From Limosilactobacillus kribbianus (GTDB taxonomy: Bacteria > Bacillota > Bacilli > Lactobacillales > Lactobacillaceae): DNA of 47,524 nt. The notes below the pieces were generated by a model. The model worked only from the letters and a program-made list of their open reading frames with translations. It was not told the DNA's origin and did not search any database. A program made the position numbers and the translations under genes. The stretch is taken from assembly GCF_026413145.1 (NCBI RefSeq), contig NZ_JAOVYZ010000010.1, forward strand, positions 1-47,524. The letters run 5' to 3'. Of the stretch, positions 17,782-44,863 are shown one piece after another (positions within the stretch are counted from its first letter, which is position 1; the number at the start of each line of letters is the position of its first letter).

Positions 17782-17895
17782 TAGTCTCACCTCCTTTCGT
17801 TGTATTTTTAATTATTAAGTTTTCGTTACATTGGTGGCTTTTAAAAAACTACTAATTTCAAAATTTTAAACAAAAATCGTTCAAAAGTTTATCTT

Positions 17896-28909: not shown

Positions 28910-30415
28910 TTACTTGGTCAGGCCCGTCTTGAAGATGGCGATTCCGTGAACGTTGTACTTCTCGTTATTGGTCTTCTTCCCACTGGCCACATCGATAATG
29001 AATTGGATGAACTTATCGGCAAGGCTGTCCATCGATTCATTCATCAATTGTCCAGCATCAAAGTCGATCCAGCGTGGCTTCAGGTTGGCAATGTAGGAGT
29101 TTGAGGAAACCTTAACCGTTGGCACGTAGGTTGCAAACGGCGTCCCCCGTCCCGTCGTGAAGAGGACCATCTGACAATCGGCGGATGCTTCCGCGGATGA
29201 TGAAACCAGGTCGTTCCCCGGTGCCTGCAGAAGGTTCAGGCCCCGCGTCTTGATCTTGTCACCATACATCAGAACATCGTTCACGCTGGAAGTACCAGAC
29301 TTCTGCGTACAACCAAGCGACTTGTCTTCCAGAGTTGAGATCCCCCCGGCCTTGTTACCAGGAGATGGGTTTTCGTAGATTGGCTGGTGGAAGCGTTCGA
29401 AGTATTCCTTAAAGTTGTTGATCAGGTGGACAATCTTGTCAAAGGTGGCCTGGTCCTTGGCCCGGGACATCAGGATTGTCTCCGCACCAAACATTTCTGG
29501 CACTTCTGACAAGACCGTCGTCCCGCCCTGGGCAGCAACAAAGTCAGACAGGCGTCCCAGCAGTGGATTGGCCGTCACACCGGAAAGACCGTCGGAGCCC
29601 CCGCACTTCAAGCCAATCTTCAGTTCACTAAGTGGTTGTGGAGTACGGTGGTCATCCTTGACCGCTTCGTTCAGTTCCTCGAGCATTGCCAAGCCATCGG
29701 CAATCTCGTCATCACTGTCAGCAGAAGAAAGGAACTTGACCCGCTTCGTGTCGATTGGGCCATTGGCTTCTTCCAAAAGCTCCTTCATCTTCTTTAGTTC
29801 GTCATCGTCCGTGCAACCCAATCCACAGATCAGAACTGCACCGGCGTTTGGCTGCATGGCGGCGTCGACTAAGATCTTGCGCGCCCGCTCATAGTTGTCC
29901 TGCGGGGTTTCAATCCCGTAGGTGTGCTTGAGCGGAACCACATTGTCGAAATTGCCGTCATCTGGGTGGAGGGCCTTGAATTCGGTAACCAGTGGGTCAA
30001 GCAGTTCGCTGACCGAGCCCACTACCGGGATAATGTAGAGGTCATTCCGGATGCCAACCTTGCCGTTTGGCCGCTTGTAGCCCATGAACTTCCGGTCGTC
30101 CTTTTTCCCCTTGGCGGGAACTTTGATTGGATCGTAGTGGTAAGACAGCTCACCGGACAGGTTCGTGGCAATGTTATGGATGTGGACATGCTCACCGCGC
30201 TTGATGTCCTGGGTGGCATGACCAATCGGGTAACCATACTTGATCACGTCGGCGCCCTTCTTGATATCCTCCAGGGCAATCTTGTGTCCCCGGGTAATGT
30301 CTTCGATGGTGGTGACGTCACCATGGTCCCGCGTCTTCAGTACCGTGCCTTCAGGAATATCCTGGAGGGCCACCGCGACTGAATCGTGGTCATCCAAAAT
30401 AATGAAATTATTCAT
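28910..30415 (-). CDS. uxaA: Altronate dehydratase family protein, copy 1
   Basis: A 501-residue UxaA-family protein. Altronate dehydratase converts D-altronate to 2-keto-3-deoxygluconate (KDG). The N-terminal SAF-type domain keeps HVHIHN (76-81). The C-terminal part keeps CGGSDG (271-276), NPSPGNKAGG (349-358), SLGCTQKSG (366-374) and TGRGTP (421-426), all family-conserved. The central motifs are altered: the usual TVGC reads VVGS (131-134), YGCSQLG reads YGIETPQ (166-172), and GLGCENNQ reads GLGCTDDD (198-205). Copy 2, at 32009-33499, keeps exactly these and lacks the others. It is the last gene of the uxaB operon, with AAAGGAG 9 bases from the ATG. Confidence 0.88.
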   Translation of the reverse strand: MNNFIILDDHDSVAVALQDIPEGTVLKTRDHGDVTTIEDITRGHKIALEDIKKGADVIKYGYPIGHATQDIKRGEHVHIHNIATNLSGELSYHYDPIKVPAKGKKDDRKFMGYKRPNGKVGIRNDLYIIPVVGSVSELLDPLVTEFKALHPDDGNFDNVVPLKHTYGIETPQDNYERARKILVDAAMQPNAGAVLICGLGCTDDDELKKMKELLEEANGPIDTKRVKFLSSADSDDEIADGLAMLEELNEAVKDDHRTPQPLSELKIGLKCGGSDGLSGVTANPLLGRLSDFVAAQGGTTVLSEVPEMFGAETILMSRAKDQATFDKIVHLINNFKEYFERFHQPIYENPSPGNKAGGISTLEDKSLGCTQKSGTSSVNDVLMYGDKIKTRGLNLLQAPGNDLVSSSAEASADCQMVLFTTGRGTPFATYVPTVKVSSNSYIANLKPRWIDFDAGQLMNESMDSLADKFIQFIIDVASGKKTNNEKYNVHGIAIFKTGLTK

Positions 30416-30430
30416 TATTCATAACTCCTT

Positions 30431-31084
30431 TTACTTTTCGTTCCGAATCCGCAGCAGTTCTTCGTGGAACTTCTTAGCATTTTCGGTTACTTGATCGTAG
30501 TCACCATCAGCACCAGGGCCAACCAGGCTACCACCGGCACCAACACAGAAGGCACCAGCTGCGAACCAGTCCTTCATGTTGTCCAGGGAAACACCACCAC
30601 TTGGCATAATGTTAGCCTGCGGGAATGGTCCTTGCAGTTCTGGGATCATCTTGACACCAGCAATGGCACCAGGGAAGATCTTGACAACATCGGCCCCGGT
30701 CATCAGTGCTTGCTGAACTTCGGTTGGCGTGAAGCAGCCTGGCATGTAAGGAACGGCGTAAAGGTTACAGATCTTAGCAACTTCTTCATTGTAAGAAGGA
30801 CTAACAATGAACTTGGCACCGGCAACCATCGCCATCCGGGCAGTTGCTGGGTCCAGAACCGTTCCGGCACCAACAACAACGTCAGGGTCATCCGCGAATT
30901 CTTCGTTCAGGTGCTTGATCGTGACGTCGGCATTTGGTGACGTGAAGGCTAATTCGATTGCCTTAACTCCACCCTTGATGCTGGCCTTGGAGGTCTTGTA
31001 GGCATTTTCTTCGCTCCGGCCACGAACAACGGCTAAAATACCGGCCTTTTCAACTGCTTTCAGTGCTTCATACTTTGGTAACAT
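30431..31084 (-). CDS. kdgA: KDPG/KHG aldolase
   Basis: A 217-residue class I aldolase cleaving 2-keto-3-deoxy-6-phosphogluconate to pyruvate and glyceraldehyde 3-phosphate, the last step of the locus. The Schiff-base Lys sits in ADVVKIFPGA. The general base Glu is in KAIELAFTS, and PSGGVSLDNM is the phosphate-binding segment. The N-terminus GILAVVRGRSEENA is characteristic. It is the fourth gene of the operon uxaB-uxaA2-galM-kdgA-uxaA1, with AAGGAG 7 bases from the ATG. Confidence 0.95.
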   Translation of the reverse strand: MLPKYEALKAVEKAGILAVVRGRSEENAYKTSKASIKGGVKAIELAFTSPNADVTIKHLNEEFADDPDVVVGAGTVLDPATARMAMVAGAKFIVSPSYNEEVAKICNLYAVPYMPGCFTPTEVQQALMTGADVVKIFPGAIAGVKMIPELQGPFPQANIMPSGGVSLDNMKDWFAAGAFCVGAGGSLVGPGADGDYDQVTENAKKFHEELLRIRNEK

Positions 31085-31110
31085 AACTTTTCTCCTTCTT
31101 TTCTTATCGC

Positions 31111-31992
31111 TTATGACAAATGCATTTCGTATTGGGAAACCTTGCTGCTGTGGGCTGGCAGGATTTCATTGCCTGGCTTTTCCATCCAGTCAACTGGTTC
31201 ACCCAAGACATCCGGCAGGCCATCGAATGGTTCCATGCACAGGAACTTGCAATCCAGGTCTTCCTTGGTCCACAGGCACAGATTCTTAAACTGGCTGACG
31301 TCCATTTCAACCGCGTGCGTCGTCTGTGCTGAGGATAGTTTAACACTCTTGATGCCTGGGTTGCTAATGATCCGCAGGCCTGGCTTGAAGACGTCGTAGT
31401 TCAAGGTCAGCTTACCATCCTTAGCGCCGGCTAGTTCCTCTTCCTTCCCGGTCCGGTAAGGATTTGGCGTCTTGACGATCTCATAAACCTTGATTGGGTC
31501 TTTCAGGCCGGTGAACTGAACTTGGTAATCAGCAAACTTGCCGTCGCCATTGATCGGCACGTTGAATGCTGGGTGAGAACCCAGGGAGTATGGCATTTCC
31601 CGGTCAGAATCATTTTCAACCGTAAAGCTGACGGAAAGGCCGGTGCTGAGCAGGGTAAAGACCACCGTCAGCTTAAAGTCGAATGGGTAGAGGGCCTTCG
31701 TCTCATCGTTGGCCACCAGCTGCAGGGCCAGGGCATTTGGCGTGTGGTAGCTCACCGTGAAGTCCTGATCGCTGACAAAACCGTGCTGAGGCATCTCATA
31801 GGTCTTGCCGTCCAGAACGTACTTGTCCTGGTTGGAACGACCGATTGCCGGGAACAGCACTGGGGCATGTTTCCCCCATTCCTTACCGTTCCAAATGTAA
31901 TCAAAATCAGCTTTCTTATTTACCAGGTGCGTTAATTGCGCCCCGTGCTCGTCGATTTCTGCACTAAAGACATCATTTTCAATTTTTTGCAT
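31111..31992 (-). CDS. Aldose 1-epimerase family protein
   Basis: A 293-residue galactose-mutarotase-fold protein of the LacX/YihR-like group. FPAIGRSNQDKYVLDGKTYEMPQHGF and SLGSHPAFNVPI carry the conserved Arg and His positions, and a catalytic Glu is likely near FLCMEPFDGLPD. In this operon it probably equilibrates anomers of imported uronates or their ketoses, speeding entry to UxaC; the sugar is inferred from context. The ATG at 31990-31992 follows AAGGAAG. An upstream in-frame extension of 46 codons overlaps uxaA copy 2 and is rejected. Confidence 0.85.
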   Translation of the reverse strand: MQKIENDVFSAEIDEHGAQLTHLVNKKADFDYIWNGKEWGKHAPVLFPAIGRSNQDKYVLDGKTYEMPQHGFVSDQDFTVSYHTPNALALQLVANDETKALYPFDFKLTVVFTLLSTGLSVSFTVENDSDREMPYSLGSHPAFNVPINGDGKFADYQVQFTGLKDPIKVYEIVKTPNPYRTGKEEELAGAKDGKLTLNYDVFKPGLRIISNPGIKSVKLSSAQTTHAVEMDVSQFKNLCLWTKEDLDCKFLCMEPFDGLPDVLGEPVDWMEKPGNEILPAHSSKVSQYEMHLS

Positions 31993-32008
31993 TTTGGTAA
32001 CTTCCTTA

Positions 32009-33499
32009 CTATTCAGTGACCCCGATCTTGAAGATTGCCAGGCCGTGCAAGCCGGCCTTTTCATTGCTGGTTTCCTTACCGCTGGCAATCGCGATAATGT
32101 CGTCAACAAATTCCTTGGCCAGTTCGTCAAACGGCTTCGTCAACGCCTGGCCACCATCAAAGTCAAACCAACGCTGCTTCTTAGCTGCCAAGGCGGAATC
32201 AGCCGCCACCTTCACGGACGGAACAAAGCTGGCGTATGGCGTCGCAACTCCCGTGCTGACAACGACCAGCTGACAGTCAGCAGCGGCCTCAGCCGAGGAA
32301 TCAATCAGGTCGTTGGCCGGTGCTTCCAAGACATTTAAGCCGGCAGCGCTAACCTTTTTGCCATAGCTGATTGCACCGCTGATTGCGGCATCCCCAGCCG
32401 TTTGCAGGGTATTAACTGCCAATTCCTTGGCGGTCGTGATTCCCTTCGCTTGTTCCTTAGCACTTGGCTCGCTAACCAATTGCTGGTCAAATTCAGCGTA
32501 GTAATCACGCATGTGACCAAAGACGTGTTGAACATCTGCGGCCGCCTCTTGGCTTGCGCTTTGCTTGACCAGCTCGTCTTCTGCGGCGGCCAGGTTCGGC
32601 AGTCCCGTCAGAACGGTGCTGCCGCCATTGGCGTTGATCACATTTGCCAGGTGACCCAGCAGGCGGTCAGCGGTCAGCGGCGAAACAGCGGCTGGCTGAA
32701 CGCTTTGCAGACCGACCTTCAACTCGCTCAATGGCACCGGTTCACGGTGGTCATTAGCGGCAGCGGTATTCAATTCCTCCAGCATTTCTTGGGCCGTGGC
32801 AAATTCGTTCTTGACCTCCTGGGCAACCAAGAACTTCATCCGGTCCGGATCAATACCGGCCATCTTTTCGATGGTTTCCTTCATCCCATCCATCTGGTTA
32901 TTCTCACAGCCCAGGCCGAATACTAAGACACCACCAGCATTGGGATGCAGTGCGGCATCACACAGGATCTGCCGCGTTTGTTCAAAGTCCTCACCCAGCT
33001 GTGAACAGCCATAAGGGTGCTTTAACAAGATGATATTGTCAAAGGAACCATTATCGGGGTGAGCAGCCTTGAATTGTTGCACCATCACGTCCATCAATGG
33101 GGTAATGCAGCCAACGGTCGGCACAATGAAGAGATCGTTGCGGATCCCGACCTTGCCGCTCTTCCGTCGGTAACCCATAAGGGTTTGCTTGGTCAGGTAC
33201 TTGGACAGGTCCGCTGCTGGAGAAGTCGATTTAGCATCGTCTTCAGCCGCGTCACTCAAATTATGCTCATCAACCAACTGGCCAGCCTTAACGTCCGCCG
33301 TCAAGGTTCCAATGTGCTGCCCAAATTTGACGATGGGTTCGCCAGCAGCCAGGTCCGTCAAGGCAACTTTATTGCCAGCCGGAACCGCGGCTAATAAATT
33401 CAGTTGACGTTCGTTAACATTAACAGTATCTTTGGCAGCTAAGTCCGTCGTGGCAATTGCCACATTGTCGCTGTCGTTTAAGATAACCAGTTTTTCCAT
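32009..33499 (-). CDS. Altronate dehydratase family protein, copy 2 (complementary motif loss)
   Basis: A 496-residue UxaA-family paralogue. It keeps the central motifs PTVGC (127-131), YGCSQLG (163-169) and GLGCENNQ (195-202). It lacks those elsewhere: the HVHxHN motif reads LVDEHN (75-80); CGGSDG is replaced within LQSVQPAA (264-271); SLGC-T-Q-K-x-G reads AVNTLQTAG (361-369); and TGRGTP reads TGVATP (416-421). Alone it should be unable to catalyse dehydration, yet the frame is intact and the central half is highly conserved. It sits in the same operon as copy 1, whose losses are the mirror image. A heteromeric enzyme is the most economical reading. GAGGAG precedes the ATG. Confidence 0.85.
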   Translation of the reverse strand: MEKLVILNDSDNVAIATTDLAAKDTVNVNERQLNLLAAVPAGNKVALTDLAAGEPIVKFGQHIGTLTADVKAGQLVDEHNLSDAAEDDAKSTSPAADLSKYLTKQTLMGYRRKSGKVGIRNDLFIVPTVGCITPLMDVMVQQFKAAHPDNGSFDNIILLKHPYGCSQLGEDFEQTRQILCDAALHPNAGGVLVFGLGCENNQMDGMKETIEKMAGIDPDRMKFLVAQEVKNEFATAQEMLEELNTAAANDHREPVPLSELKVGLQSVQPAAVSPLTADRLLGHLANVINANGGSTVLTGLPNLAAAEDELVKQSASQEAAADVQHVFGHMRDYYAEFDQQLVSEPSAKEQAKGITTAKELAVNTLQTAGDAAISGAISYGKKVSAAGLNVLEAPANDLIDSSAEAAADCQLVVVSTGVATPYASFVPSVKVAADSALAAKKQRWFDFDGGQALTKPFDELAKEFVDDIIAIASGKETSNEKAGLHGLAIFKIGVTE

Positions 33500-33506
33500 G
33501 AAACTA

Positions 33507-34928
33507 CTACTCCTCTGCATTAATTTCCTGGACAATTGCCCGGGTGCCCTTTTCGGCAATTTCGTTGTAGTACTTGGTTACCAAGTCTTCCAGTCCTGGA
33601 ATCTTGGTGAGGTCTTCACCCCAGAATTCTGGGTTAGAGAGAGCCTCGTGAATAAAGTTGTCGTCGCCCTGGATCTTCTTGAAGCCCGCCGTGACATCAG
33701 CCGTATCGTTGATTTCAAATTCGGACTTGCCGTTGTAAATCCACATGTAGGCAGCCAGTGCCAAGGTCATCCGTTCTGGCAGCTTGTTGTACTTAGCGTA
33801 GTAACGCTTGTAGTTTGGCAGCAGCCGTGCGGCGTACTTGGAAATACTGTTCAGTGCCAGGGCACTCAGTTGGTGCTTAACGTAAGGATTTTCAAACCGT
33901 TCTTGGATCCCCTTAGCGTAGCTGTCCAGTTCTTCCTTCGGCAACGGAACGACCGGAATGATTTCCTTGTGCATTTCGTCGTCAATGAACTTGTAGAAGT
34001 CCTTGTCGGCCATTACCTGACCAACCGTCTCCAGACCAGCCAGCCGGCCAATTGGTGACATCGTAGTGTGCGGGCCATTTAAGATGGAAACTTTCCGGTT
34101 CCGGTATGGCTGCATGTCGTCAGTGACAACCAGGTTGATCCCGGCTTCCTTGAGTGGCAGGACCTTTTCGATTCCCTTGTCCCCTTCAATGACGAAGATC
34201 AGGAATGGTTCGGTCTTAACCATGTTTTGGTCCTTGTAGCCCCATTCCTTTTCCAGATCAGCAGCCCGGTCGCGTGGGTAGCCCGGAACGATCCGGTCAA
34301 CCAGTGTGGAGTAGAACTTGTTGTCGTTGTTGATCCAGTCAACAAAGTCTTGGCCCAGCTTCCAAAGATCAGCGTACTGCAGAATGGCCTTCTTCAGTGC
34401 ATCCCCGTTGTGGTTAATCAGTTCACACGGAATGATGTGGAAGCCCTTCTTGCCTAATTCGAAGCGGTGGTAAAGCAGTGCCGTTAATTTGGCCGGGTAA
34501 GAACTCTTTTCACCCTTCTTCAATGCTTCCAGCGTGTCTTCAGGAACGAATTCAATCCCCGCTTCGGTCGTGTTGGAGAAGATCACTTCAATGTTGTCAT
34601 CTTCAGCCAGTGCCAGGTACTTATCGTAGTCAGTGTAGGGGTTAACAGTTCCGTTAATCGATTCAATAATTTCGTGGCTTTGAATCTTCTTACCGTCCAG
34701 AATTCCTTCCAGCAGAACGGTGTAGAGGTCGTCCTGTTCGTCGAGTTCCTTAATCCGGCCCTGTGGCAGCGGTTGAACAACCTGAACGCCACCCTTGAAG
34801 AGGCCCTGCTTATTCATCTGGTGAATCTGCCAGTCGATGAAGGCCCGCAGGAAATTCCCTTCACCAAATTGAATTACCTTGTTTGGATATTGCGGCAATT
34901 TACGAAAACTGTTATTAAGTCTATCCAT
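33507..34928 (-). CDS. uxaB: Tagaturonate reductase (altronate oxidoreductase)
   Basis: A 473-residue long-chain polyol dehydrogenase family enzyme that reduces D-tagaturonate to D-altronate with NADH. VIQFGEGNFLRAFIDW is the nucleotide-binding opening. LNGPHTTMSPIGRL and VKHQLSALALNSISKYAARLLP carry catalytic Lys/Asn/His positions typical of UxaB rather than UxuB. The ATG at 34926-34928 follows GGAGG by 9 bases; codons further upstream belong to the leader. It is the first gene of the five-gene operon ending at uxaA copy 1, with a leader of about 165 bases behind a dyad-containing promoter. Confidence 0.93.
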   Translation of the reverse strand: MDRLNNSFRKLPQYPNKVIQFGEGNFLRAFIDWQIHQMNKQGLFKGGVQVVQPLPQGRIKELDEQDDLYTVLLEGILDGKKIQSHEIIESINGTVNPYTDYDKYLALAEDDNIEVIFSNTTEAGIEFVPEDTLEALKKGEKSSYPAKLTALLYHRFELGKKGFHIIPCELINHNGDALKKAILQYADLWKLGQDFVDWINNDNKFYSTLVDRIVPGYPRDRAADLEKEWGYKDQNMVKTEPFLIFVIEGDKGIEKVLPLKEAGINLVVTDDMQPYRNRKVSILNGPHTTMSPIGRLAGLETVGQVMADKDFYKFIDDEMHKEIIPVVPLPKEELDSYAKGIQERFENPYVKHQLSALALNSISKYAARLLPNYKRYYAKYNKLPERMTLALAAYMWIYNGKSEFEINDTADVTAGFKKIQGDDNFIHEALSNPEFWGEDLTKIPGLEDLVTKYYNEIAEKGTRAIVQEINAEE

Positions 34929-35530: not shown

Positions 35531-36613
35531 TCAATCGTGCTTCTCAGTCCCCTTTTGGATGGCCTCCCACAGGCCGTTGAGGTAAGTAATTCCCAGGGCC
35601 CGATCGTAGAGGCCATATCCCGGCCGACCGTGCTCACCCCAGATATCGCGTCCATGGTCCGGCCGGATGTAGCCGTCAAAGCCAGTATCATAGAGGGCCT
35701 TCATAATTTCGTACATGTCCAGCGACCCTTCGGAAGAAAGGTGGGCTGCTTCATGGAAGTCACCGTTGCCCATCCATTTAATGTTTCGCGCGTGAATAAA
35801 TGGCGCCCGGTCTTTTTTCACAAATTCACGGATGATTGCCGGGACATCATTTGCGGGGTTCTCCCCCAGGCTTCCGGTACAGATGGTAAAACCGTTGTAT
35901 CTTGATTCGTGCAGCTCCTCAATTTTGACCATGTCCTCCCGGTTCTTATAGATCCGTGGCAAGCCAAATAACAGCATCGGCGGATCGTCCGGGTGTATTG
36001 CCATTCGGACGTCATACTTTTCGCAGGTTGGAATAATTGCGTCCAGGAAGTATTTCAGATTCTCCCGCAGCTTTTGCTCGTCGACGCCCTTGTAAGCCGC
36101 AAACAAACGCTTCACTTCCGCCAACCGTTCTGGCTCCCAACCCGGTAAAACATAACCGTTGGAGTTTTCTTCAACGGATTTGATGATGTCTTCCGGCGCC
36201 CCCTCAACGTAGCGGTGCTGAAAAGCCATGTCGGTCGACCCATCCGGGAGCGGATAATGCAAATCGGTCCGCACCCAGTCAAAAATCGGCATAAAGTTAT
36301 AACAAATGACCTTGATCCCGTAAGCAGCCAAGTTCTTGATCGTTTCCTTGTAGTTTTCAATGTAGCGATCCCGGCTTGGCAGGCCGATCTTGATGTCGTC
36401 GTGAATATTGACCGACTCAATCACCTCAAGCTTGAGGCCCGCATCTTCAACTTCTTTTTTCAGTGCTGCGATTCGCGACTTTGGCCACACTTCGCCAACT
36501 GGAATATCAAAAAGTGCCCCGACGACCTGCGTTGTTCCTGGAATTTGGCGAATATCCGCTAGTTTAACCGAGTCATTATTATCGCCATACCAGCGAAAAC
36601 CCATATTTTTCAT
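35531..36613 (-). CDS. uxuA: Mannonate dehydratase
   Basis: A 360-residue xylose-isomerase-fold enzyme converting D-mannonate to KDG, using Mn2+ or Fe2+. MGFRWYGDNNDSVKLADIRQ, CYNFMPIFDWVRTDL, MAIHPDDPP, FTICTGSLGENPAND and YIRPDHGRD are family signatures holding the His/Cys/Asp metal ligands. The length is that of the shorter Gram-positive form. It lies 16 bases after uxuB in the same unit. The ribosome site (AGAAAGAAG) is modest, and M4 is an alternative start. Confidence 0.95.
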   Translation of the reverse strand: MKNMGFRWYGDNNDSVKLADIRQIPGTTQVVGALFDIPVGEVWPKSRIAALKKEVEDAGLKLEVIESVNIHDDIKIGLPSRDRYIENYKETIKNLAAYGIKVICYNFMPIFDWVRTDLHYPLPDGSTDMAFQHRYVEGAPEDIIKSVEENSNGYVLPGWEPERLAEVKRLFAAYKGVDEQKLRENLKYFLDAIIPTCEKYDVRMAIHPDDPPMLLFGLPRIYKNREDMVKIEELHESRYNGFTICTGSLGENPANDVPAIIREFVKKDRAPFIHARNIKWMGNGDFHEAAHLSSEGSLDMYEIMKALYDTGFDGYIRPDHGRDIWGEHGRPGYGLYDRALGITYLNGLWEAIQKGTEKHD

Positions 36614-36629
36614 TTATTCATTCTTCTTT

Positions 36630-38261
36630 CTAATATTTACCGTACTTGCGAATAATTGCTTGAAGCGCTGCCCAGACTGCCCCCGGGCCGCTAATCATTT
36701 GCTTAAAGTCATTTTCGATCTTTTCTCCCAGGCCAATGGTATACAAATCATTAGCAAAAATTGCCCGGTTGCTTAGGATCGGCCGCAACTTGGCATGGAC
36801 ATCAATCTTTTCGCCCAGCTTAACGCCAGCAAGGTATTCATGCAGCTGGCCATAGAGTGGATCCGGACTCGGGGTAAAGGCCGCGCCCTGGTCATCAATC
36901 GCCATCAAGTACCGACACCAGCCGGCAATCACCAGGGGAATAAATTCCAGGTCCGCCGGGTCGCGCTTGGGATCGGCAACGCAATGCTGCAGGGTGACCC
37001 CATAGCGAATCCCCATTTTTTGTGACGTGTCCGTCGCAATCCGCTGGGGCGTATCCGGGATGTTTTTATTTGGCAGGCGCTTGGTGATTAAGGTCTCGAT
37101 AAATTCCTGCGGGTTAATGATTCCCGGATCCTTGACCACCGGCAGGTCTTCCCCGTAGCCAAGATTTTTAATCAGCTTTAGGAGATCATTGTCAGCTACT
37201 TCTGCCGCAATCGAGTGAAAGCCGAGCAGGCAACCAAAAATTGCCAGTGAAGTGTGCAGTGGGTTGAGGCAAGCCGTGACCTTCATCTGGTCGGCATCAT
37301 TCACGGTTTCCCGATCGGTTAAGATCACACCGGCCTTTTCCAGAGCCGGCCGGCCATTTGGAAAATGATCTTCGATGACCAAATAATGAACTTCTTCAGT
37401 GTTGCCAAACGGTGCAATCTTCGTCTGTTTGCGGGTCTGAATCAGCGCCGTATCCTCAAAACCATCAGCTTCTAGCTGTTGAGCGACCGCAGCTGAAGGA
37501 TTAGGGGTAATCCGGTCGATCATGCTCCACGGAAAACTGACCTTTTGTGGATCACGCAGGTAAGCGAGAAAGCCTTGATCAACGAAGCCATTCGCTAACC
37601 AACCCTTGGCCATCAGCATTATTGCATCCTGGAGGCGCTGGCCATTTTGCGAAAAGTTGTCGGTGCTAACCAGCGCAAGCGGTGCCTGGTTAGCCTGGTA
37701 GCGGGCCAGCAAGAGGCTCGCCACCAAGCCGATGTTGGTGAGCGGGTTGGCCGGTCCCTTGGCCAGATCGGTCACTGCTTCTTTGGTTAAGTTACCATTC
37801 AGATCGCGCAATGCGTAGCCCTTCTCCGTGATTGAGAAGGTTACCAGCTGTAGCGACTGCTTAGTAAAAATCTCAGCCAGCCGTTTTCGCCCTTCTTGAT
37901 GATCGGCACCTGCATAAATGCTTTCGGCCACGCTAGCAACTAGTTCCTTTTCAAACGTGCCATCGCTCTTCATCTCAACCGCCAGGAAACGGTTGTTAAA
38001 GGGATGATAAACGTGGTTAATCACTTCATCGTCGTACGTTTCGGCAACAATGATGCCACTCTTCATTTCACCACTGTTCAGCAGCCGCTGGGCGATGATT
38101 GAATGAAAGCAGCGAAATAGATTTCCGCCCCCAAAGTGAACCCAAACCGGTTTTTCGGCCGTCTGCTTGATCATTTCGTTTTGATTAAACTGTGGAACGG
38201 CAATTCCGGCTTGGTGAAATTGCTCTGCCTTTGCTTGATAGTCGTCCAATAATTTCACCAT
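36630..38261 (-). CDS. uxuB: Fructuronate reductase (mannonate oxidoreductase)
   Basis: A 543-residue polyol dehydrogenase of the mannitol dehydrogenase family, reducing D-fructuronate to D-mannonate. VWVHFGGGNLFRCF is the NAD-binding motif. STDNFSQNGQRL and KVTACLNPLHTSLAIFGCLLG contain the conserved catalytic Lys and the N-x-x-H motif of UxuB. AGGAGGGG precedes the ATG. It is first in uxuB-uxuA and divergent from the GntR regulator, whose operator-like palindromes lie in the shared gap. Confidence 0.93.
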   Translation of the reverse strand: MVKLLDDYQAKAEQFHQAGIAVPQFNQNEMIKQTAEKPVWVHFGGGNLFRCFHSIIAQRLLNSGEMKSGIIVAETYDDEVINHVYHPFNNRFLAVEMKSDGTFEKELVASVAESIYAGADHQEGRKRLAEIFTKQSLQLVTFSITEKGYALRDLNGNLTKEAVTDLAKGPANPLTNIGLVASLLLARYQANQAPLALVSTDNFSQNGQRLQDAIMLMAKGWLANGFVDQGFLAYLRDPQKVSFPWSMIDRITPNPSAAVAQQLEADGFEDTALIQTRKQTKIAPFGNTEEVHYLVIEDHFPNGRPALEKAGVILTDRETVNDADQMKVTACLNPLHTSLAIFGCLLGFHSIAAEVADNDLLKLIKNLGYGEDLPVVKDPGIINPQEFIETLITKRLPNKNIPDTPQRIATDTSQKMGIRYGVTLQHCVADPKRDPADLEFIPLVIAGWCRYLMAIDDQGAAFTPSPDPLYGQLHEYLAGVKLGEKIDVHAKLRPILSNRAIFANDLYTIGLGEKIENDFKQMISGPGAVWAALQAIIRKYGKY

Positions 38262-39161: not shown

Positions 39162-40187
39162 TTACCGGGAAACGCGAACACCCGCGCCGCCGTCCATCAC
39201 GGCCCGAACGTCGGCTTCGGTCGTAACGTTAAGGTCACCGAGCACCGTCAGCTTCAGCACGCTGGCTGCAATCGCGTGGTCAATTAATTCTTGATCCGCA
39301 AAGTCATTCAAGATCCCATGCATCAGGCCGGCACCAAAGGCATCCCCGGCGGCAACCCCTTCTAAGACGTCGACCTGGTAGGCCGGACTTTCGGTGAACT
39401 TGCCATCCCGGTAAACCAGTCCCATCCAGGTGGACTTGTCGACAGACTGAATGTTCCGCAGCACGCTGGCAACCACCTTGACGTTTGGATAACGCTTGGT
39501 GATTTCCTTCATCCCGTCTTCAAAGGTTGAGCGCTGTTCGATCCCATGGGACATGTCGCCATCAAAGGCGTGGATGCCCAGTGACTGTTCAAAGTCCTCA
39601 TCGTTGGCAATGCAGATCGTCACGTATGGCATCACCTTTTGCATGAATTCCTGGGCTTCCTCAGTCGTCCAGAGCTTGCCCCGGAAGTTCAGGTCACAGG
39701 CAACCTGAATACCGTGTTCACCGCAGTATTGGCAGGCATTCAGAACCGCTTGACGTAACTCGGCGGACAGGGCCGGCGTAACCCCGCTGAAGTAGAAGTA
39801 ATCCGCTCCCGCAAGCAGCTTGCTCCAGTCATATTCATCCGCGCGGGAGATTGCGAAGGAACTGCCGGCACGGTCGTAGGTCACGTTCGTGGAACGAACA
39901 CTGTGGCCCTTTTCAAACACGTACATTCCCAGCCGGGGACCGCCCCGCAGGATCAGCGAGGTATCAACGCCGAATTGCCGCAGCTGGTTGATAGCCGCCT
40001 GCCCCAGGATGTTTTCCGGCAACTTGGAAACGTAGGCAACCTGATCGCCAAACATGCTCAGCGAAACGGCAACGTTAGCTTCGGAACCACCATAGTTCAC
40101 ATCAAACTGGTCGGCCTGAAGGACCCGCTTCATGTTGGATGGCTTCAAGCGCATCATCATCTCACCAAAAGTAACAACTTTTTTCAT
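39162..40187 (-). CDS. kdgK: 2-keto-3-deoxygluconate kinase
   Basis: A 341-residue PfkB/ribokinase-family kinase phosphorylating KDG to KDPG, the step that joins all branches of the locus. NYGGSEANVAVSLSMFG is the sugar-binding opening. ACDLNFRGKLW and GVAAGDAFGAGLMHG are present, the latter with the catalytic Asp and anion hole. AAAGGAG precedes the ATG. It lies 23 bases after the acyltransferase gene and is probably co-transcribed with it. Confidence 0.93.
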   Translation of the reverse strand: MKKVVTFGEMMMRLKPSNMKRVLQADQFDVNYGGSEANVAVSLSMFGDQVAYVSKLPENILGQAAINQLRQFGVDTSLILRGGPRLGMYVFEKGHSVRSTNVTYDRAGSSFAISRADEYDWSKLLAGADYFYFSGVTPALSAELRQAVLNACQYCGEHGIQVACDLNFRGKLWTTEEAQEFMQKVMPYVTICIANDEDFEQSLGIHAFDGDMSHGIEQRSTFEDGMKEITKRYPNVKVVASVLRNIQSVDKSTWMGLVYRDGKFTESPAYQVDVLEGVAAGDAFGAGLMHGILNDFADQELIDHAIAASVLKLTVLGDLNVTTEADVRAVMDGGAGVRVSR

Positions 40188-40210: not shown

Positions 40211-41431
40211 TTATTCTGCGTATTCAAGGGCGTAATTGGTCAGCAGGTCGCGCATGATCAGCATGACGTTTTTGCCTAAGCGAGCCTCTTCGTCGTTGCC
40301 GAGCATCGCGTAGGCAAAGATCAACTGACCGTCGTAGGTGCTGACTGCGACCTGGAACATCGGCGCGCGCCGGTAGCTTCCCAGCATGTCAAAGTCAGTC
40401 ACCTGACAACCGGCAAAGTGGAATTTAGCTTTGTCGACAATTCCAAAATTGGTATAGGAAATCGTCCGGACGTGGTAATTTTCCTCACAGATCTGCTGGA
40501 GCTGGGCCAGCGAGTAGTTGGCGTAATTATCAACCAACGTTTTGACCGATTCAAGGCACCGAAACTGCTCCTTATTGGCCGCCATTGCGCGGTGAACAGC
40601 CTGAACGACGGTCGTAAACGGTGCCGCCGGGTCGGAAACAACACTAATATTATAACGCGAAGTATGATTGGCAACCCGTAATTCTGGCGGACCCGCAATA
40701 AACTTCCGCATGTCGGTTGGGCAGGCTAGTGAGATGCGCTCGGTAGCCGAGAAGCGCTGGACGGCCTGCCCATAGGCTGCCATGAAGAGGTCATTTAAGG
40801 TGACCCCGGTGGCATGACCCGCTTCAATCAACTTGGGCAAAACTTTTTTGTCCAGGTGCAGGGTTCCCGTCCGGTAATGCTGGTCGTGGGAGTCGGCAAG
40901 CTGGGGCATTGTCAGTGGGTCGGCTGGGTGATCGGCCCCCTTTTTGACCTCAACCGGATGCTGGGCCAGCAGGTCGTGCAGCCAATCGATATCGGTATGA
41001 TTTTCAACCGCACTCAGATCGCCGCCATTGTATGCCCGGGCCAACAGGGTCATGAACTGCTTAGCACCGGCCCCGTCGGTCAGGATGTGGCTGAGATAGA
41101 TCGTCACGTCCTGTCTTGTTTCTACTTGATTCAGGTAAACACGCAACTGAGGATCGCGGAACAGGTCCCACTTGGCCCAGTCCGCGTCTGGATCAATCCC
41201 CTGAAAGAGGACGCCGGTTAAATCATCAGTCACGGTCACAAAGCTGTTGTCGGCAAGAACATACTTGCAAAACAATTCTGGAATTGCTCGGCCGCACGCC
41301 AGCAGGGCCGCCCGAAACCGTTTCAGATCAAAGTCCCCGGTCAAGACAAAGTGAATCCGGACAATCGGGTAGAGTTCATCCATCCCAATCGTATGCAAAA
41401 TATTCAACGGATTCCCGCGATATACTACCAT
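40211..41431 (-). CDS. Condensation-domain/alcohol acyltransferase-like protein
   Basis: A 406-residue CoA-dependent acyltransferase-superfamily protein. The catalytic motif HILTDGA (His115, Asp119, Gly120) matches HxxxDG. GVTLNDLFMAAYGQAV and ISLACPTDMRKFI match the mid-domain elements of condensation and alcohol O-acetyltransferase families. The protein is soluble. No carrier protein or NRPS module is nearby, so a free acyl-CoA donor and a small acceptor, perhaps a sugar acid or alcohol, are likely. Its place directly ahead of kdgK in a uronate locus is unexpected. The ribosome site is GGGGG, and a terminator-like hairpin stands 20 bases upstream. Confidence 0.7.
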   Translation of the reverse strand: MVVYRGNPLNILHTIGMDELYPIVRIHFVLTGDFDLKRFRAALLACGRAIPELFCKYVLADNSFVTVTDDLTGVLFQGIDPDADWAKWDLFRDPQLRVYLNQVETRQDVTIYLSHILTDGAGAKQFMTLLARAYNGGDLSAVENHTDIDWLHDLLAQHPVEVKKGADHPADPLTMPQLADSHDQHYRTGTLHLDKKVLPKLIEAGHATGVTLNDLFMAAYGQAVQRFSATERISLACPTDMRKFIAGPPELRVANHTSRYNISVVSDPAAPFTTVVQAVHRAMAANKEQFRCLESVKTLVDNYANYSLAQLQQICEENYHVRTISYTNFGIVDKAKFHFAGCQVTDFDMLGSYRRAPMFQVAVSTYDGQLIFAYAMLGNDEEARLGKNVMLIMRDLLTNYALEYAE

Positions 41432-41638: not shown

Positions 41639-43108
41639 TTAGTATTGGAAAGGATTCTCGTGTGCATCGAACAGCTCATCTGGCTTAGCGTCGCCAAAGA
41701 AGCCGAAGTATTCGTAAGCATTGTTGTAGGCAATGTCTTGGATAATCTTGCCCAGGTATTCTTCATCTTCTGGTGCCCGACCTTGTTCAACCAGTTCACC
41801 AAAGAAGTTGCACAGAACCCGACGGAAGTATTCGTGCCGTGGGTAGGACAGGAAGCTCCGGGAGTCGGTCAGCATACCGACAAAGTTTGGCAGCAGACTT
41901 TGTTGAGCAAAGTCACGTAGTTGAGTCGTCATCCCTTCAGCGGTGTCGTTGAACCACCATGCAGCACCCAGTTGCATCCGTTGCTTGCCACCTTCAAGGA
42001 AGCAACCCATCAAGGTTACTAATTGCATCCAGTCGTTTGGATTCAGGGAGTAGAAGATAGTCTTTGGAATGTTGTTGGAGTCACGCATCGTGGAGTAGAG
42101 CTTTTGAATCTGGTCAACAATGTCTGGCTGGGTCCCCATCGCGTCGTAACCGGTATCCTGACCCAGCTGCTTGAACATTGGGTGGTTAAGGTCACGGATG
42201 GAGTTGATGTGGAACTGCATCGTCCAGTTGTACTTGGTGTTAAGCTTCATCATTTCTTCCAGGAACATCGTCAGCCACTTGTCGTATTCAACGCCGGTAA
42301 CTTCTTCGTTAGCTTCAGCCTTCTTCATGATGGCGTCCAGCTCTTCGTCGGTTGCTTCGGCGAAGTGGTAAGTCAGAAGAGAGTGGTCGGACAGACGACC
42401 GCCCATGTCGTTGAAGTATTGGAACCGTTGCTCCATAGCCTTGATCAGGTCACGGAAGGAGTTGATTTCAACGCCAGAGATTTCACTCAATTGCTTGATG
42501 TATTCAGCAAAAGTTGGCTTGTTGATCTGAATCAGGTTGTCTGGCCGCATTGCAGGCAGAGTCCGGAAGCCGTTTTGCCGTTCTTCCTTCTTCAAAAGCT
42601 TGTGGTAGTGCAGGTCAGAAGCTGGGTCATCCGTGGTGCAGACAGCCTTAACGTTGGACAGCTTGATCAGGTTGCGTGGCTTGAAGTCATCAGTTTGCAG
42701 AAGTGCGTTGGCCTTCTTCCAAACTTCCGGAGCGTTCTTGGTCGTCAGTGGTTCGTCAATGCCAAAGAAACGCCGTAATTCCAGGTGCGTCCATTCATAA
42801 ACCGGGTTACCAACGGCCTTTTCAATCGTGCCGGCCCAAGCCATGAACTTGTCGTAATCATCGGCGTCGCCAGTGATCAGGTCTTCTGGAACACCGTTGG
42901 CACGCATCAGACGCCACTTGTAGTGGTCACCATAGTGATCTTCGTTGATCCAAATCCGGGTAATGTTGGCGTAGTTCTTGTTCTCATAGATTTCCTCTGG
43001 GTTCAGGTGACAGTGGAAGTCGATGATCGGCATGTCCTTTGCATAGTCGAAGAAGAGCTTCTTGGCCCATTCATTGGTTAACAGAAAATTCTTGTCTAAT
43101 AAAGTCAT
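41639..43108 (-). CDS. uxaC: Uronate isomerase
   Basis: A 489-residue amidohydrolase-fold isomerase converting D-glucuronate to D-fructuronate and D-galacturonate to D-tagaturonate, feeding both branches. [10 protein letters not shown] near residue 34 is the metal-binding opening. [15 protein letters not shown] and [21 protein letters not shown] are further signatures with active-site Asp/His/Arg. The length is as expected. It lies 28 bases after the transporter gene, with a GGAGGAA ribosome site. Confidence 0.95.
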
Positions 43109-43136: not shown

Positions 43137-44606
43137 CTACTTAACGTCAGCATCACCGATAACACCGTGTTCCCAACGACCGTTATCCAGGTCAGTAGCG
43201 ATTTGCTTGAACTTGGCATCGCTGATCTTGTACAGGAAACCAATGATGATGGCAGCCATGATCAGGCAGAAGCCTGGGTAGAGGGTCATTGCGGCCTTGA
43301 TCCCTTGGAGGGTCTTAGCGGATTGTTGAGCGTTGGCAACGTAGCCAGTAATGGCCAGCACACCGGAACTAACCAGGGCAGCCAGTGACTGAGCAAGTTT
43401 CCGTGAGAAGTTGAAGGCGGCGTAGGTAATACCTTCCTTCCGCATCCCGGTGTGCCATTCACCGTAGTCAATGGCATCGGAAACCATGGCCCAGGTAATC
43501 CCGTTTGGAATAGCCAGGGCGGTGTAACCGATCGTAACTAAGACGATGAAGGTTACCACGTTGGTTGGCAGGAAGAAGTTGACCAGGTTGGCAACGGCAC
43601 CGACAACGAATGACCACATTGCGGTCCGCTTCTTACCAAAGTGCTTGGTCAGAGTAGGGATCATGAAGACACCGACGATTGAGCAACCCATCATAACGGC
43701 GTTGATGATTGGCTGCAGACCAATGTTACCCAGGTTGTATTGAGCGTAGAAGACCATCATTTGGTTGTTAGTGTTCATTGCGGAAATCGTGAACAGGGTC
43801 ATCAGAATCAAAGCACCCAGTGGGCCGTTCGTGAAGACAACCTTGATGTAGTCCTTGAAGCCTTCCCGCTTAGCATTCTGGTCACGGTGAACCTTAACGT
43901 TTTCCTTCGTCCCGAAGTAGCAGACGGCAAACATCAGGACACCCATGATGGCGAAGACGGCGGAAGCGAAGAAGTAACCATGCATCTGGTCCTTACTACT
44001 CATCCCACCACCGACTAATTCCATCAGTGGAATGAAGGCAACCCCGGCGATAAACTGAGCACCAACGGAACCAACCTGCCGGGAAGTAGCCATAAAGCTA
44101 CGGTCCTCAGGGTTCCGCGACATGACCGACGCTAGCGAGCCATACGGGTCATTGGTAAATGAATAAACAACACCCCAGATCATGTAAACGGCATATGCGT
44201 AGATGATCTTTTGGCCGGTGGACAGGCCCAGTGGCATCGTAAAGGTAACAACCGTCATGATCCCCAGGATAATGGCGGAGATCATCATGACAGGACGGAA
44301 CTTCCCTTGCTTACCAATATGCTTCCGACCATCGACGAATGAACCAGCGATTGGGTCCATGAAGGCATCGAAGATCTTGGTGAAGGCAAAGATTCCGGCA
44401 ACGGCACCGGCACCAATTCCGGCGGCATCAATCCAGAACTTCGTCAGGTATGCCTGACCAAGGTCAAACATGAACCCGTTCCCAAAGTCACCAAAGCCAT
44501 AAAAGACTTTTTGGTGTGTTGGGATTTTCTTGTTATAGTTATCTACTTTTTCAACCGTATCTTTCTTTGCTTTAACAGCAGTATCCGGTGACTGTTGATC
44601 ACTCAT
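43137..44606 (-). CDS. GPH-family glycoside/uronide:cation symporter
   Basis: A 489-residue membrane carrier of the GPH (MFS_2) family with about 12 hydrophobic segments. VFYGFGDFGNGFMFDL, FDAFMDPIAGSFVDGRKHIGKQGKFRP and AMVSDAIDYGEWHTGMRKEGI are GPH motifs, as in UidB-, YicJ- and LacS-like carriers. There is no C-terminal EIIA domain. Context makes it the uronate or oligouronide importer. The ATG at 44604-44606 has AAGGAGG 9 bases upstream; the 84 upstream codons cover a promoter and leader and are rejected. It is the first gene of the unit with uxaC, with a leader of about 170 bases. Confidence 0.9.
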   Translation of the reverse strand: MSDQQSPDTAVKAKKDTVEKVDNYNKKIPTHQKVFYGFGDFGNGFMFDLGQAYLTKFWIDAAGIGAGAVAGIFAFTKIFDAFMDPIAGSFVDGRKHIGKQGKFRPVMMISAIILGIMTVVTFTMPLGLSTGQKIIYAYAVYMIWGVVYSFTNDPYGSLASVMSRNPEDRSFMATSRQVGSVGAQFIAGVAFIPLMELVGGGMSSKDQMHGYFFASAVFAIMGVLMFAVCYFGTKENVKVHRDQNAKREGFKDYIKVVFTNGPLGALILMTLFTISAMNTNNQMMVFYAQYNLGNIGLQPIINAVMMGCSIVGVFMIPTLTKHFGKKRTAMWSFVVGAVANLVNFFLPTNVVTFIVLVTIGYTALAIPNGITWAMVSDAIDYGEWHTGMRKEGITYAAFNFSRKLAQSLAALVSSGVLAITGYVANAQQSAKTLQGIKAAMTLYPGFCLIMAAIIIGFLYKISDAKFKQIATDLDNGRWEHGVIGDADVK

Positions 44607-44693
44607 ACGGTAAAACCTCCTTAAAACACACGTGAACAATTGCAACAAAAATAAAAATGGTACTCTTCTAACTAGTAAAGAACCCATAAAACC

Positions 44694-44714
44694 GCAATGA
44701 AACGATTGCTTTGC
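44694..44714 (-). promoter_or_regulatory. 9-3-9 dyad in the transporter leader
   Basis: GCAATGAAA and TTGCTTTGC form a 9-3-9 imperfect dyad (7 of 9 pairs). The AATGAAAC half resembles KdgR (IclR) sites of enterobacteria. Assignment to the resident IclR protein is tentative. Confidence 0.3.
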
Positions 44715-44786
44715 TAAAAGGATAGGACTAACACCATTAAGTTTTGGCCGATCACCTTTAACACAATCAATAATATCACATAAATC

Positions 44787-44800
44787 TGAAAACGTTAACA
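44787..44800 (-). promoter_or_regulatory. Perfect cre site upstream of the transporter
   Basis: On the minus strand TGTTAACGTTTTCA matches TGWNANCGNTNWCA fully. It overlaps a candidate -35 (TTAACG) that is 17 bases from TATTAT. This predicts CcpA repression of uronate uptake and UxaC. Confidence 0.7.
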
Positions 44801-44863
44801 TTTTTTGTGAAAATAATAACGTTTTTTTGCGATTTTTTTCTGACAGGCACACGGACAAAAAAG

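Follow-up and report, generated by a model that had tools for sequence, protein, structure and literature searches.

Why should a bacterial genome keep two paralogues of the altronate dehydratase UxaA at one locus, when each of them lacks conserved residues that the other retains? The question is raised by the window analysed here, a stretch of 47,524 nucleotides from Limosilactobacillus kribbianus (contig NZ_JAOVYZ010000010.1), in which the two copies, C1 and C2, lie on the minus strand (Table 1). A first-pass annotation of these letters had read them as intact genes that have lost complementary halves of the family motifs, and had proposed a split enzyme in which each subunit supplies part of the active site. 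Both frames are indeed intact with one terminal stop each, and all eight motifs named for C1 as well as all seven named for C2 are found verbatim.

Two UxaA paralogues and their neighbourhood

No PF20629 protein other than C1 and C2 was found in the genome, and an intact uxaB adjoins them, being located directly upstream of C2 with a gap of 7 nt. A purine-rich stretch precedes the uxaB start. The pair is encoded together with this tagaturonate reductase gene and with KDG-processing genes, and it is this operon context that suggests altronate as the probable substrate. Since galM and kdgA separate them, C1 and C2 are not translationally coupled. Promoter and terminator scans of the locus gave consensus matches only, to which no weight is given.

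Both copies score above the curated cut-offs of PF04295 (the middle domain, D2) and PF20629 (the C-terminal domain, D3), and because they match the same dehydratase domain models, an annotation based on domains only would call each of them complete. The SAF domain of C1 is matched with 48.7 bits (cut-off 21), while C2 is unreported by the SAF profile at E 0.001, though it aligns across the SAF region. The NCBIfam equivalog model of GarD, TIGR03248 (cut-off 730.85 bits), is not reached by C1 (280.9 bits) or by C2 (192.5 bits). Identity to lactobacillar UxaA is 62-72% for C1 and 45-51% for C2.

Table 1. Features of the locus, by position in the window
Feature	Coordinates	Strand	Evidence or state
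C1, UxaA paralogue	28910..30415	-	ORF 501 aa; Pfam SAF, PF04295, PF20629
C1 C-terminal domain D3 (PF20629)	28922..29632	-	0/56 invariant columns damaged
C1 Cys271 of CGGSDG, fourth conserved Cys, kept	29603..29605	-	
C1 middle domain D2 (PF04295)	29660..30082	-	8/20 invariant columns damaged
C1 Cys201, third conserved Cys, kept; Ser in 1/10 orthologues	29813..29815	-	
C1 Ile168, in place of second conserved Cys	29912..29914	-	alignment
C1 Ser134, in place of first conserved Cys	30014..30016	-	alignment
C1 SAF domain with HVHIHN	30170..30379	-	Pfam match and motif search
kdgA, KDPG aldolase	30431..31084	-	PF01081
galM, aldose 1-epimerase-like, between C1 and C2	31111..31992	-	PF01263; start located
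C2, UxaA paralogue	32009..33499	-	ORF 496 aa from ATG; Pfam PF04295, PF20629
C2 C-terminal domain D3	32018..32731	-	33/56 invariant columns damaged
C2 Ser266, in place of fourth conserved Cys	32702..32704	-	alignment
C2 middle domain D2	32759..33175	-	1/20 invariant columns damaged, in one orthologue
C2 Cys198, third conserved Cys, kept	32906..32908	-	alignment
C2 Cys165, second conserved Cys, kept	33005..33007	-	alignment
C2 Cys131, first conserved Cys, kept	33107..33109	-	alignment
uxaB, tagaturonate reductase	33507..34928	-	NCBIfam PRK03643, 583.5 bits (cut-off 359)
uxuA, mannonate dehydratase	35531..36613	-	Pfam and NCBIfam matches
uxuB-like, mannitol dehydrogenase family	36630..38261	-	domain match; fructuronate reductase model matched weakly
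PfkB-family kinase, probable KDG kinase	39162..40187	-	profile matches
uxaC, glucuronate isomerase	41639..43108	-	profile match
GPH-family (glycoside-pentoside-hexuronide) symporter	43137..44858	-	profile match

Domain-wise loss of invariant residues

To describe the losses we used a strict set of 86 columns that are invariant in UxaA and GarD-like proteins (10 in SAF, 20 in D2 and 56 in D3); six fragments or oddly covered sequences were left out before the count, among them L126, which is probably a whole GarD-like protein. In C1 the middle domain is altered and the SAF and C-terminal domains are intact. C2 has an intact middle domain, and its SAF and C-terminal domains are altered: the His of SAF is gone, as are most of the motifs of D3, and 4 of the 10 SAF columns are damaged. 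Each copy lacks different invariant residues, which its partner keeps. No D2 or D3 column is damaged in both, where 3.6 would be expected (p = 0.007), and a Fisher test of the bias between domains gives p = 6.7e-6 for C1 and 1.6e-5 for C2, both tests assuming an independence of columns that is only approximately true. The loss is thus reciprocal, as had been claimed, but it does not fall into equal halves: it goes by domain, in D2 for C1 and in D3 plus SAF for C2. One SAF column (C1 position 76, Trp in the family) is altered in the two copies alike. The same picture, less clean, is given by 164 columns chosen more loosely, for invariance in UxaA only, with damage at 17/40 D2 and 1/107 D3 columns in C1, at 5/40 and 68/107 in C2, and at one D2 column and 2/17 SAF columns in both.

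Such departures lie outside the range of the family. Across the 86 columns, ordinary UxaA proteins (n = 56) show 0-2 deviations each, with a median of 0, and GarD-like proteins (n = 12) show 0-4; the orthologues of C1 deviate at 6-8 and those of C2 at 26-32. The alignment that the first-pass annotation had called for finds the losses co-occurring in every C1 (n = 10) and every C2 (n = 9) orthologue read, and the motif forms which it took to be ancestral are those of ordinary UxaA in other lactobacilli.

The cysteines show the division most sharply. Four cysteines conserved in the superfamily have been proposed as iron ligands (PMC6336799), and the UxaA and GarD-like proteins aligned here share four Cys columns and no more, in matching order and with spacing similar to the published four. 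At these positions C1 has Ser, Ile or Phe, Cys (Ser in 1/10) and Cys, and C2 has Cys, Cys, Cys and Ser (Arg in 1/9). C1 therefore keeps at most the last two in 10 of 10 sequences and C2 exactly the first three in 9 of 9, so that neither copy has all four by itself and the two have them jointly. Here the earlier account needs correction in one respect: the GLGC motif of C1 is altered, yet its Cys is kept, hence two of the three D2 cysteines are lost and not all three.

Fixation, selection and a parallel case in Bacilli

Among 50 genomes of the genus, nine carry both copies and one (G409) carries C1 alone. The run uxaB-C2-galM-kdgA-C1 is inherited together in eight of the nine two-copy genomes, and in the ninth (G421) the contigs break between the copies. 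The losses are fixed across the species, and the pair is retained in both main clades of the species that bear it. An artefact of a single genome or assembly is rejected, as 10 genomes show the pattern, in 10 C1 and 9 C2 sequences. In G409 C1 is intact and C2 is absent from the assembly; no uxaB was found there, in a search without a positive control. The contig stops immediately upstream of galM, where C2 would start, in a sequence that is also present at three further contig ends of the same genome; the pieces read at those three ends hold none of the operon genes. The C1-only state may be a real loss or an assembly gap, and since no uxaB was found and the contig ends at the position of C2, G409 is no clear counter-example to an obligate pair.

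C1 and C2 each form one clade, and both lie within the lactobacillar UxaA clade with support of 100/100, from which an unequal ancestry, for example the acquisition of C2 from elsewhere, is not supported. A tree of D2 only places C2 with the lactobacillar clade at a weak support of 43, and direct sisterhood of C1 and C2 has an AU p of 0.30. Between the window and G417, dN and dS are 0.0036 and 0.205 for C1 and 0.0046 and 0.181 for C2, which gives a whole-gene dN/dS of about 0.02 for each; judged by these substitutions, purifying selection is acting on both copies. Compared over the same nine species (36 pairs), the rate of D2 is 0.155 in C1 and 0.084 in C2, that of D3 is 0.046 and 0.366, and that of SAF is 0.154 and 0.422, with 0.179 for D2 and 0.148 for D3 in ordinary lactobacillar UxaA (n = 15). 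The domain rates cross over between the copies, in accord with the domain-wise losses. That C2 is simply turning into a pseudogene after duplication, as the many changes in its D3 and SAF, where dN/dS reaches its maximum of 0.19, might suggest, is scarcely credible and we reject it, because its frames are open without stops in 9/9 genes, dN/dS is near 0.02 in the close pair, D2 is strongly conserved and both main clades retain the pair.

A similar partition is found in another family of Bacilli, f150, among the best-scoring matches listed in searches of the phylum and the class, which may miss rarer pairs elsewhere. There an alpha paralogue has none of the three D2 cysteines and keeps the fourth, the SAF domain, with HxHN, is encoded by a gene of its own, and a beta paralogue has all three D2 cysteines, lacks a Cys where the fourth would align and has a shortened D3, being about 311 aa in all. 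The partition into alpha, SAF and beta holds in 15 of 15 fully read loci; outside this count stand L245 (alpha beyond the piece), L251 (beta cut by a contig end) and L252/L253 of G581, a less strict case split over two contigs. Beta subunits occur in 15 genomes at 16 loci, and two short matches resembling fragments turned out to be beta subunits. In a D3 tree C1 falls among lactobacillar UxaA with a support of 100, and alpha among SAF-less proteins with a support of 90; the 10 SAF-less proteins include two UxaA fragments (L091, L116), which were excluded from the D2 and D3 trees. From these groupings, f150 seems to have come to this partition independently. When sequences were typed by cysteines, leaving out two UxaA fragments without a readable D2, those with the fourth Cys and without the D2 cysteines were the ten C1 and six f150 alphas. 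A paralogue with the D2 cysteines is encoded near 8 of 10 C1 and 6 of 6 alphas, the exceptions being G421, with its contig break, and G409.

A probable heteromeric enzyme and its relatives

We consider that C1 and C2 are probably the two subunits of an altronate dehydratase that works only as a heteromer; its live site would be made of SAF and D3 from C1 and D2 from C2. The fixed, co-occurring losses and the same partition in a separately derived family thus lend support, at the level of sequence, to the split enzyme that had been proposed. The pair would derive from an ordinary lactobacillar UxaA. C1 would supply SAF and D3, and with them the fourth Cys (C271) as well as the motifs of D3 taken as the putative substrate site; C2 would supply D2 with the first three cysteines, which are proposed to hold iron together with the fourth Cys of C1. 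One chain shows joint decay of SAF and D3 and the other shows decay of D2, and the predicted association is therefore most simply pictured with a site between the chains, where the SAF and D3 of one subunit would be completed by the D2 of its partner. The GarD structure study reportedly describes a dimer. A homodimer with such a site between its chains would have two equal sites, and in a C1-C2 heterodimer one site would be complete and the other dead, the latter made of the C1 D2 with the C2 SAF and D3.

This geometry is read from the pattern of losses, and the partnership could be right and the geometry wrong if domains are swapped, or a larger assembly is formed, with the canonical site within one chain; we hold this to be unlikely, since a partner could not rescue a simple within-chain site and swapping is an extra assumption. 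It is more doubtful still that C1 is a self-sufficient enzyme with a changed metal site, its SAF and D3 working metal-free or with a different metal, and that C2 is a paralogue with a regulatory role or no activity. The undamaged D3 of C1, its 62-72% identity to ordinary lactobacillar UxaA and its persistence alone in G409 fit such an enzyme, but a bystander would not conserve exactly the part that C1 has lost, while the D2 of C2 varies less than that of C1 and keeps its three cysteines in 9/9; f150 repeats the pattern, and G409 has yielded no uxaB (again in the search without a positive control). Two separate homomeric enzymes with different substrates or reactions, complementary by coincidental specialisation, would agree with two intact frames under purifying selection in a region that encodes mannonate enzymes too; the loss from C2 of most D3 motifs and of the His in SAF, the complete non-overlap of losses, which would be unexpected, and the regular presence of a D2-Cys paralogue near C1 and alpha make this very improbable.

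Returning to the proposed heteromer, its loss pattern predicts a site between subunits, and the pair offers a natural dissection of an enzyme family with a poorly settled metal site, in which SAF would act with D3 and D2 apart. We lean towards a more general reading, in which the UxaA/GarD site is shared between chains and at least two lineages have separately replaced a symmetric enzyme with two sites by an asymmetric heteromer with one, through gene duplication and reciprocal loss, giving an iron-cysteine (D2) paralogue and a substrate (SAF and D3) paralogue, with the discarded halves serving as scaffold. The recurrence in f150 would make it a usable case of how obligate heteromers arise by complementary loss, and if the pair is obligate, pathway prediction or engineering with a single gene would fail.

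No description of a pair like C1/C2 was recognised in the consulted parts of the open-access literature searched. Ordinary UxaA (EC 4.2.1.7), such as the lactobacillar protein encoded downstream of uxaB, has the three domains and the kind of neighbourhood seen here; however, it carries all four cysteines and all motifs in one polypeptide, which C1 and C2 divide between them. GarD galactarate dehydratase (PDB 6U7L), homologous to both copies over nearly the whole length and with all four cysteines present in the alignments, is likewise one gene product as against two. In sulfolactate sulfo-lyase SuyAB, SuyA is the SAF domain. SuyAB and a heteromeric L-fuconate dehydratase belong to the same superfamily, the four cysteines are not conserved in SuyAB (PMC6336799), and SuyA is a short protein with SuyB a separate one (PMC12421959); unlike C1 and C2, which are both full-length and align over SAF, D2 and D3, these are not full-length paralogues with reciprocal losses. 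Heterodimeric aconitase X is an iron-sulfur dehydratase with parts on two chains, but it belongs to another superfamily, that of aconitase, its small subunit is the detached domain 4, and the portion of its description consulted mentions no reciprocal loss between paralogues (PMC8184944). A further likeness is to alpha, SAF and beta of f150 (e.g. L181), where the four cysteines and the D3 motifs are also partitioned between two paralogues, although SAF is there a third gene, the beta D3 is shortened and the ancestry is separate.

The uronate region and its two UxaA copies

ORF, Pfam and NCBIfam reading of the minus strand of the window gives a uronate-catabolism region running from a GPH symporter through the UxaA paralogue called copy 1 (see table). 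By their domains, i.e. SAF, a middle domain (D2, PF04295) and a C-terminal domain (D3, PF20629), copies 1 and 2 belong to the UxaA/GarD family, and all 15 motifs that the first-pass annotation had quoted for them are present in the translations. The genes from uxaB to copy 1 likely form an operon, since they lie on one strand with gaps of 7-26 nt and a purine-rich stretch precedes the start of each.

Genes of the uronate region (window positions) and three-gene modules of f150, a second Bacilli family
Feature	Location	Strand	Remark
GPH symporter	43137-44858	minus	
uxaC	41639-43108	minus	
condensation/acyltransferase-like gene	40211-41431	minus	PF00668 34.4 bits, cut-off 30.6
PfkB kinase	39162-40187	minus	
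uxuB-like gene	36630-38261	minus	
uxuA	35531-36613	minus	
uxaB	33507-34928	minus	
copy 2	32009-33499	minus	
galM-like gene	31111-31992	minus	
kdgA	30431-31084	minus	
copy 1	28910-30415	minus	
alpha/SAF/beta modules	L181 7094-9616; also L182-L186, L241-L251		f150

The acyltransferase-like gene inside the region has a counterpart in loci of the reuteri group too, where it lies between uxaC and uxaB. The uxuB-like gene scores 105.4 bits, far below the cut-off of 603 of the fructuronate reductase model, and is about 70% identical to its relatives against 87-94% for the adjoining uxuA; judged from its sequence, it may have a different specificity. A 2316-aa ORF lies on the same strand at 10840-17790.

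Reciprocal loss at invariant positions

We aligned 56 full-length ordinary UxaA, 12 GarD-like, 10 SAF-less, 10 copy 1 and 9 copy 2 proteins, and took as invariant the 86 columns kept in at least 95% of UxaA and at least 90% of GarD-like sequences (10 in SAF, 20 in D2 and 56 in D3). Ordinary UxaA sequences differ from these at 0-2 columns and GarD-like ones at 0-4, copy 1 at 6-8 and copy 2 at 26-32. Damage in copy 1 falls on 8 of the 20 D2 columns (5 in every sequence, 3 in some) and on none of the 56 in D3, and damage in copy 2 on 33 of the D3 columns (19 in every sequence, 14 in some) and on a single D2 column, in one sequence only. The domain bias is significant for both (p = 6.7e-6 for copy 1, 1.6e-5 for copy 2), and the two copies have no damaged D2 or D3 column in common, where 3.6 were expected (p = 0.007). 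The reciprocal loss is not chance. The pattern is imperfect, as both copies are changed at one SAF column. With a looser set of 164 columns invariant in UxaA alone, damage amounts to 17/40 in D2, 1/107 in D3 and 2/17 in SAF for copy 1, and to 5/40, 68/107 and 7/17 for copy 2, one D2 and two SAF columns being shared.

The same division is found at the metal site. Four conserved cysteines have been proposed as iron-binding sites, with SuyAB as an exception to their conservation, and iron EPR signals were reported for one member of the superfamily (both in PMC6336799). In our alignment, UxaA and GarD-like sequences have exactly four conserved Cys columns in common, three in D2 and one in D3, which we equate by order and spacing with Cys134, 173, 208 and 276 of that paper. 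At these positions copy 1 has Ser first, Ile or Phe second, and Cys third (Ser in 1 of 10) and fourth, and copy 2 has Cys, Cys, Cys and Ser (Arg in 1 of 9); neither copy alone holds all four, which the pair supplies jointly. Copy 2 has further lost H44 and Y60 of SAF, in all nine sequences, and most D3 motifs.

Mean protein distances over the same nine species (36 pairs) are 0.155 for D2, 0.046 for D3 and 0.154 for SAF in copy 1, and 0.084, 0.366 and 0.422 in copy 2, ordinary lactobacillar UxaA (n = 15) having 0.179 for D2 and 0.148 for D3; each copy is therefore least variable exactly where its partner is altered. Between the window and its close relative G417, dN/dS is about 0.02 for both copies, and in five reuteri-group genomes (10 pairs) it ranges from 0.004 (D3 of copy 1) to 0.19 (SAF of copy 2), with synonymous sites near saturation and as many as 7 of the 10 pairs giving no defined ratio. 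Neither copy has the look of a pseudogene.

Distribution and ancestry in lactobacilli

Both copies occur in 9 of 50 genomes of the genus; of the others, one has copy 1 only (G409), one a copy 1 remnant with a stop (G410) and 39 no match, these absences being soft because several genomes are incomplete. Eight of the 9 genomes carry the two copies as one linked block that encloses galM and kdgA, and in the ninth (G421) the assembly breaks within that stretch, leaving each copy close to the end of a contig of its own. In G409, genome searches found neither copy 2 (positive controls: the window's genome and G411) nor uxaB (run without a positive control). The G409 contig (L060) runs out a short way upstream of galM, at the place expected for copy 2, and its end sequence (9712-9769) recurs at three other contig ends, four in all; this repeat is possibly a mobile element, so either such an element with a deletion or an assembly gap explains copy 1 without copy 2.

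In the wider survey, 24 of the 397 family genomes and 25 of the 395 order genomes had a match. Among the matches listed, full-length second copies outside the genus all have D3 scores of at least 285 bits, against 149-183 for copy 2, and lower scores belong to split or partial frames. One Lactobacillaceae genome, G363, has five PF20629 matches on separate contigs (L003, L026, L177-L180), at least three of them UxaA-like. In eight UxaA loci of other lactobacilli (L037-L044), uxaB lies immediately upstream in seven, within about 30 nt in six and about 0.6 kb in L043, and none was seen at L037; hence copy 2, not copy 1, is in the customary UxaA place. In the full-length tree each copy forms one clade (100/100 each) inside the lactobacillar UxaA clade (100/100), and the two subtrees show the same main split of species; whether the copies are sisters is undecided by the tree test (AU p = 0.30).

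A second divided pair and the proposed shared site

The class sample and the control loci supplied another 35 UxaA-type sequences. All four cysteines are present in 29 of them; the other six, alpha subunits of family f150, lack the three of D2, keep the fourth, and each has a paralogue (beta) with the three D2 cysteines a few hundred bases away. Searching 41 f150 genomes with the beta subunit gave full-length matches (E < 1e-97) in 15 genomes, at 16 loci since G1492 has two, plus a contig-split match in one further genome; the tally of 35 out of 41 takes in cross-matches to ordinary UxaA. In the 15 loci with alpha and beta both fully read (L245, L251 and G581 standing outside this count), alpha has E, [ILTV], [HNS] and C at the four positions, beta has C, C, C and a non-Cys residue at the aligned fourth, and SAF is a separate gene with HxHN. 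L251 agrees as far as readable, with G at the third alpha position, and L245 gives beta only. Among listed matches from 239 phylum genomes, the only other near-full-length beta match is in G581 (36% identical), a looser case with a beta-like protein holding the three D2 cysteines on one contig (L252 139-1035) and, on another (L253 1908-3366), a SAF gene and an alpha-like protein whose D2 is altered and whose D3 motifs are altered in part.

Over 62 invariant columns also kept by at least 80% of SAF-less proteins (14 in D2, 48 in D3), alpha (n = 15) has lost 4-6 in D2 and 1-3 in D3, and beta (n = 16) 0-2 and 35-42. Pfam matches beta to D2 and the second half of D3, which makes it a paralogue whose D3 has shrunk rather than a domain split off on its own. 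In quick trees, D3 joins copy 1 to the lactobacillar UxaA (support 100) and alpha to the proteins without SAF (support 90), the matching D2 supports being only 43 and 75; from the D3 placement the Limosilactobacillus and f150 cases look separately derived. Next to the L181 module lie enolase-family, FAH and IlvD/EDD genes (by Pfam) and SDR and aldehyde dehydrogenase genes (by reading of translations), neighbours which make some sugar-acid pathway likely for it.

The first-pass annotation had proposed a split enzyme, and an obligate heteromeric altronate dehydratase is the reading we favour. Limosilactobacillus has intact SAF and D3 on one chain and intact D2 on the other, and two chains would be needed to build one site. 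The separate SAF gene of f150 suggests that SAF is able to act in trans. GarD reportedly forms dimers whose interface includes D2. If D2 of one chain completes SAF and D3 of its partner, a geometry we infer, a homodimer would have two equal sites and a copy 1-copy 2 dimer one live and one dead, whose residues, D2 of copy 1 and SAF and D3 of copy 2, would be free to be lost. A heteromer with another geometry was weighed as well. That copy 1 is self-sufficient with copy 2 a bystander, that the two are separate homomeric enzymes, or that the genes are decaying is in each case unlikely, because exactly the missing part is conserved, twice over.

Altronate would be the substrate of the favoured heteromer, as the adjoining uxaB points to it and the UxaB product would otherwise be without a dehydratase of this kind, copies 1 and 2 being the only PF20629 proteins in a domain search of the genome; in the canonical pathway, as outlined in PMC6978723 and PMC6353982, the step after UxaB is that of altronate dehydratase. 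Heteromeric members of the superfamily are known already, SuyAB and a named L-fuconate dehydratase being given in PMC6336799; within the open-access literature searched, where we found no description of such a pair, the element that looks new is the reciprocal loss in two paralogues that would share one site.
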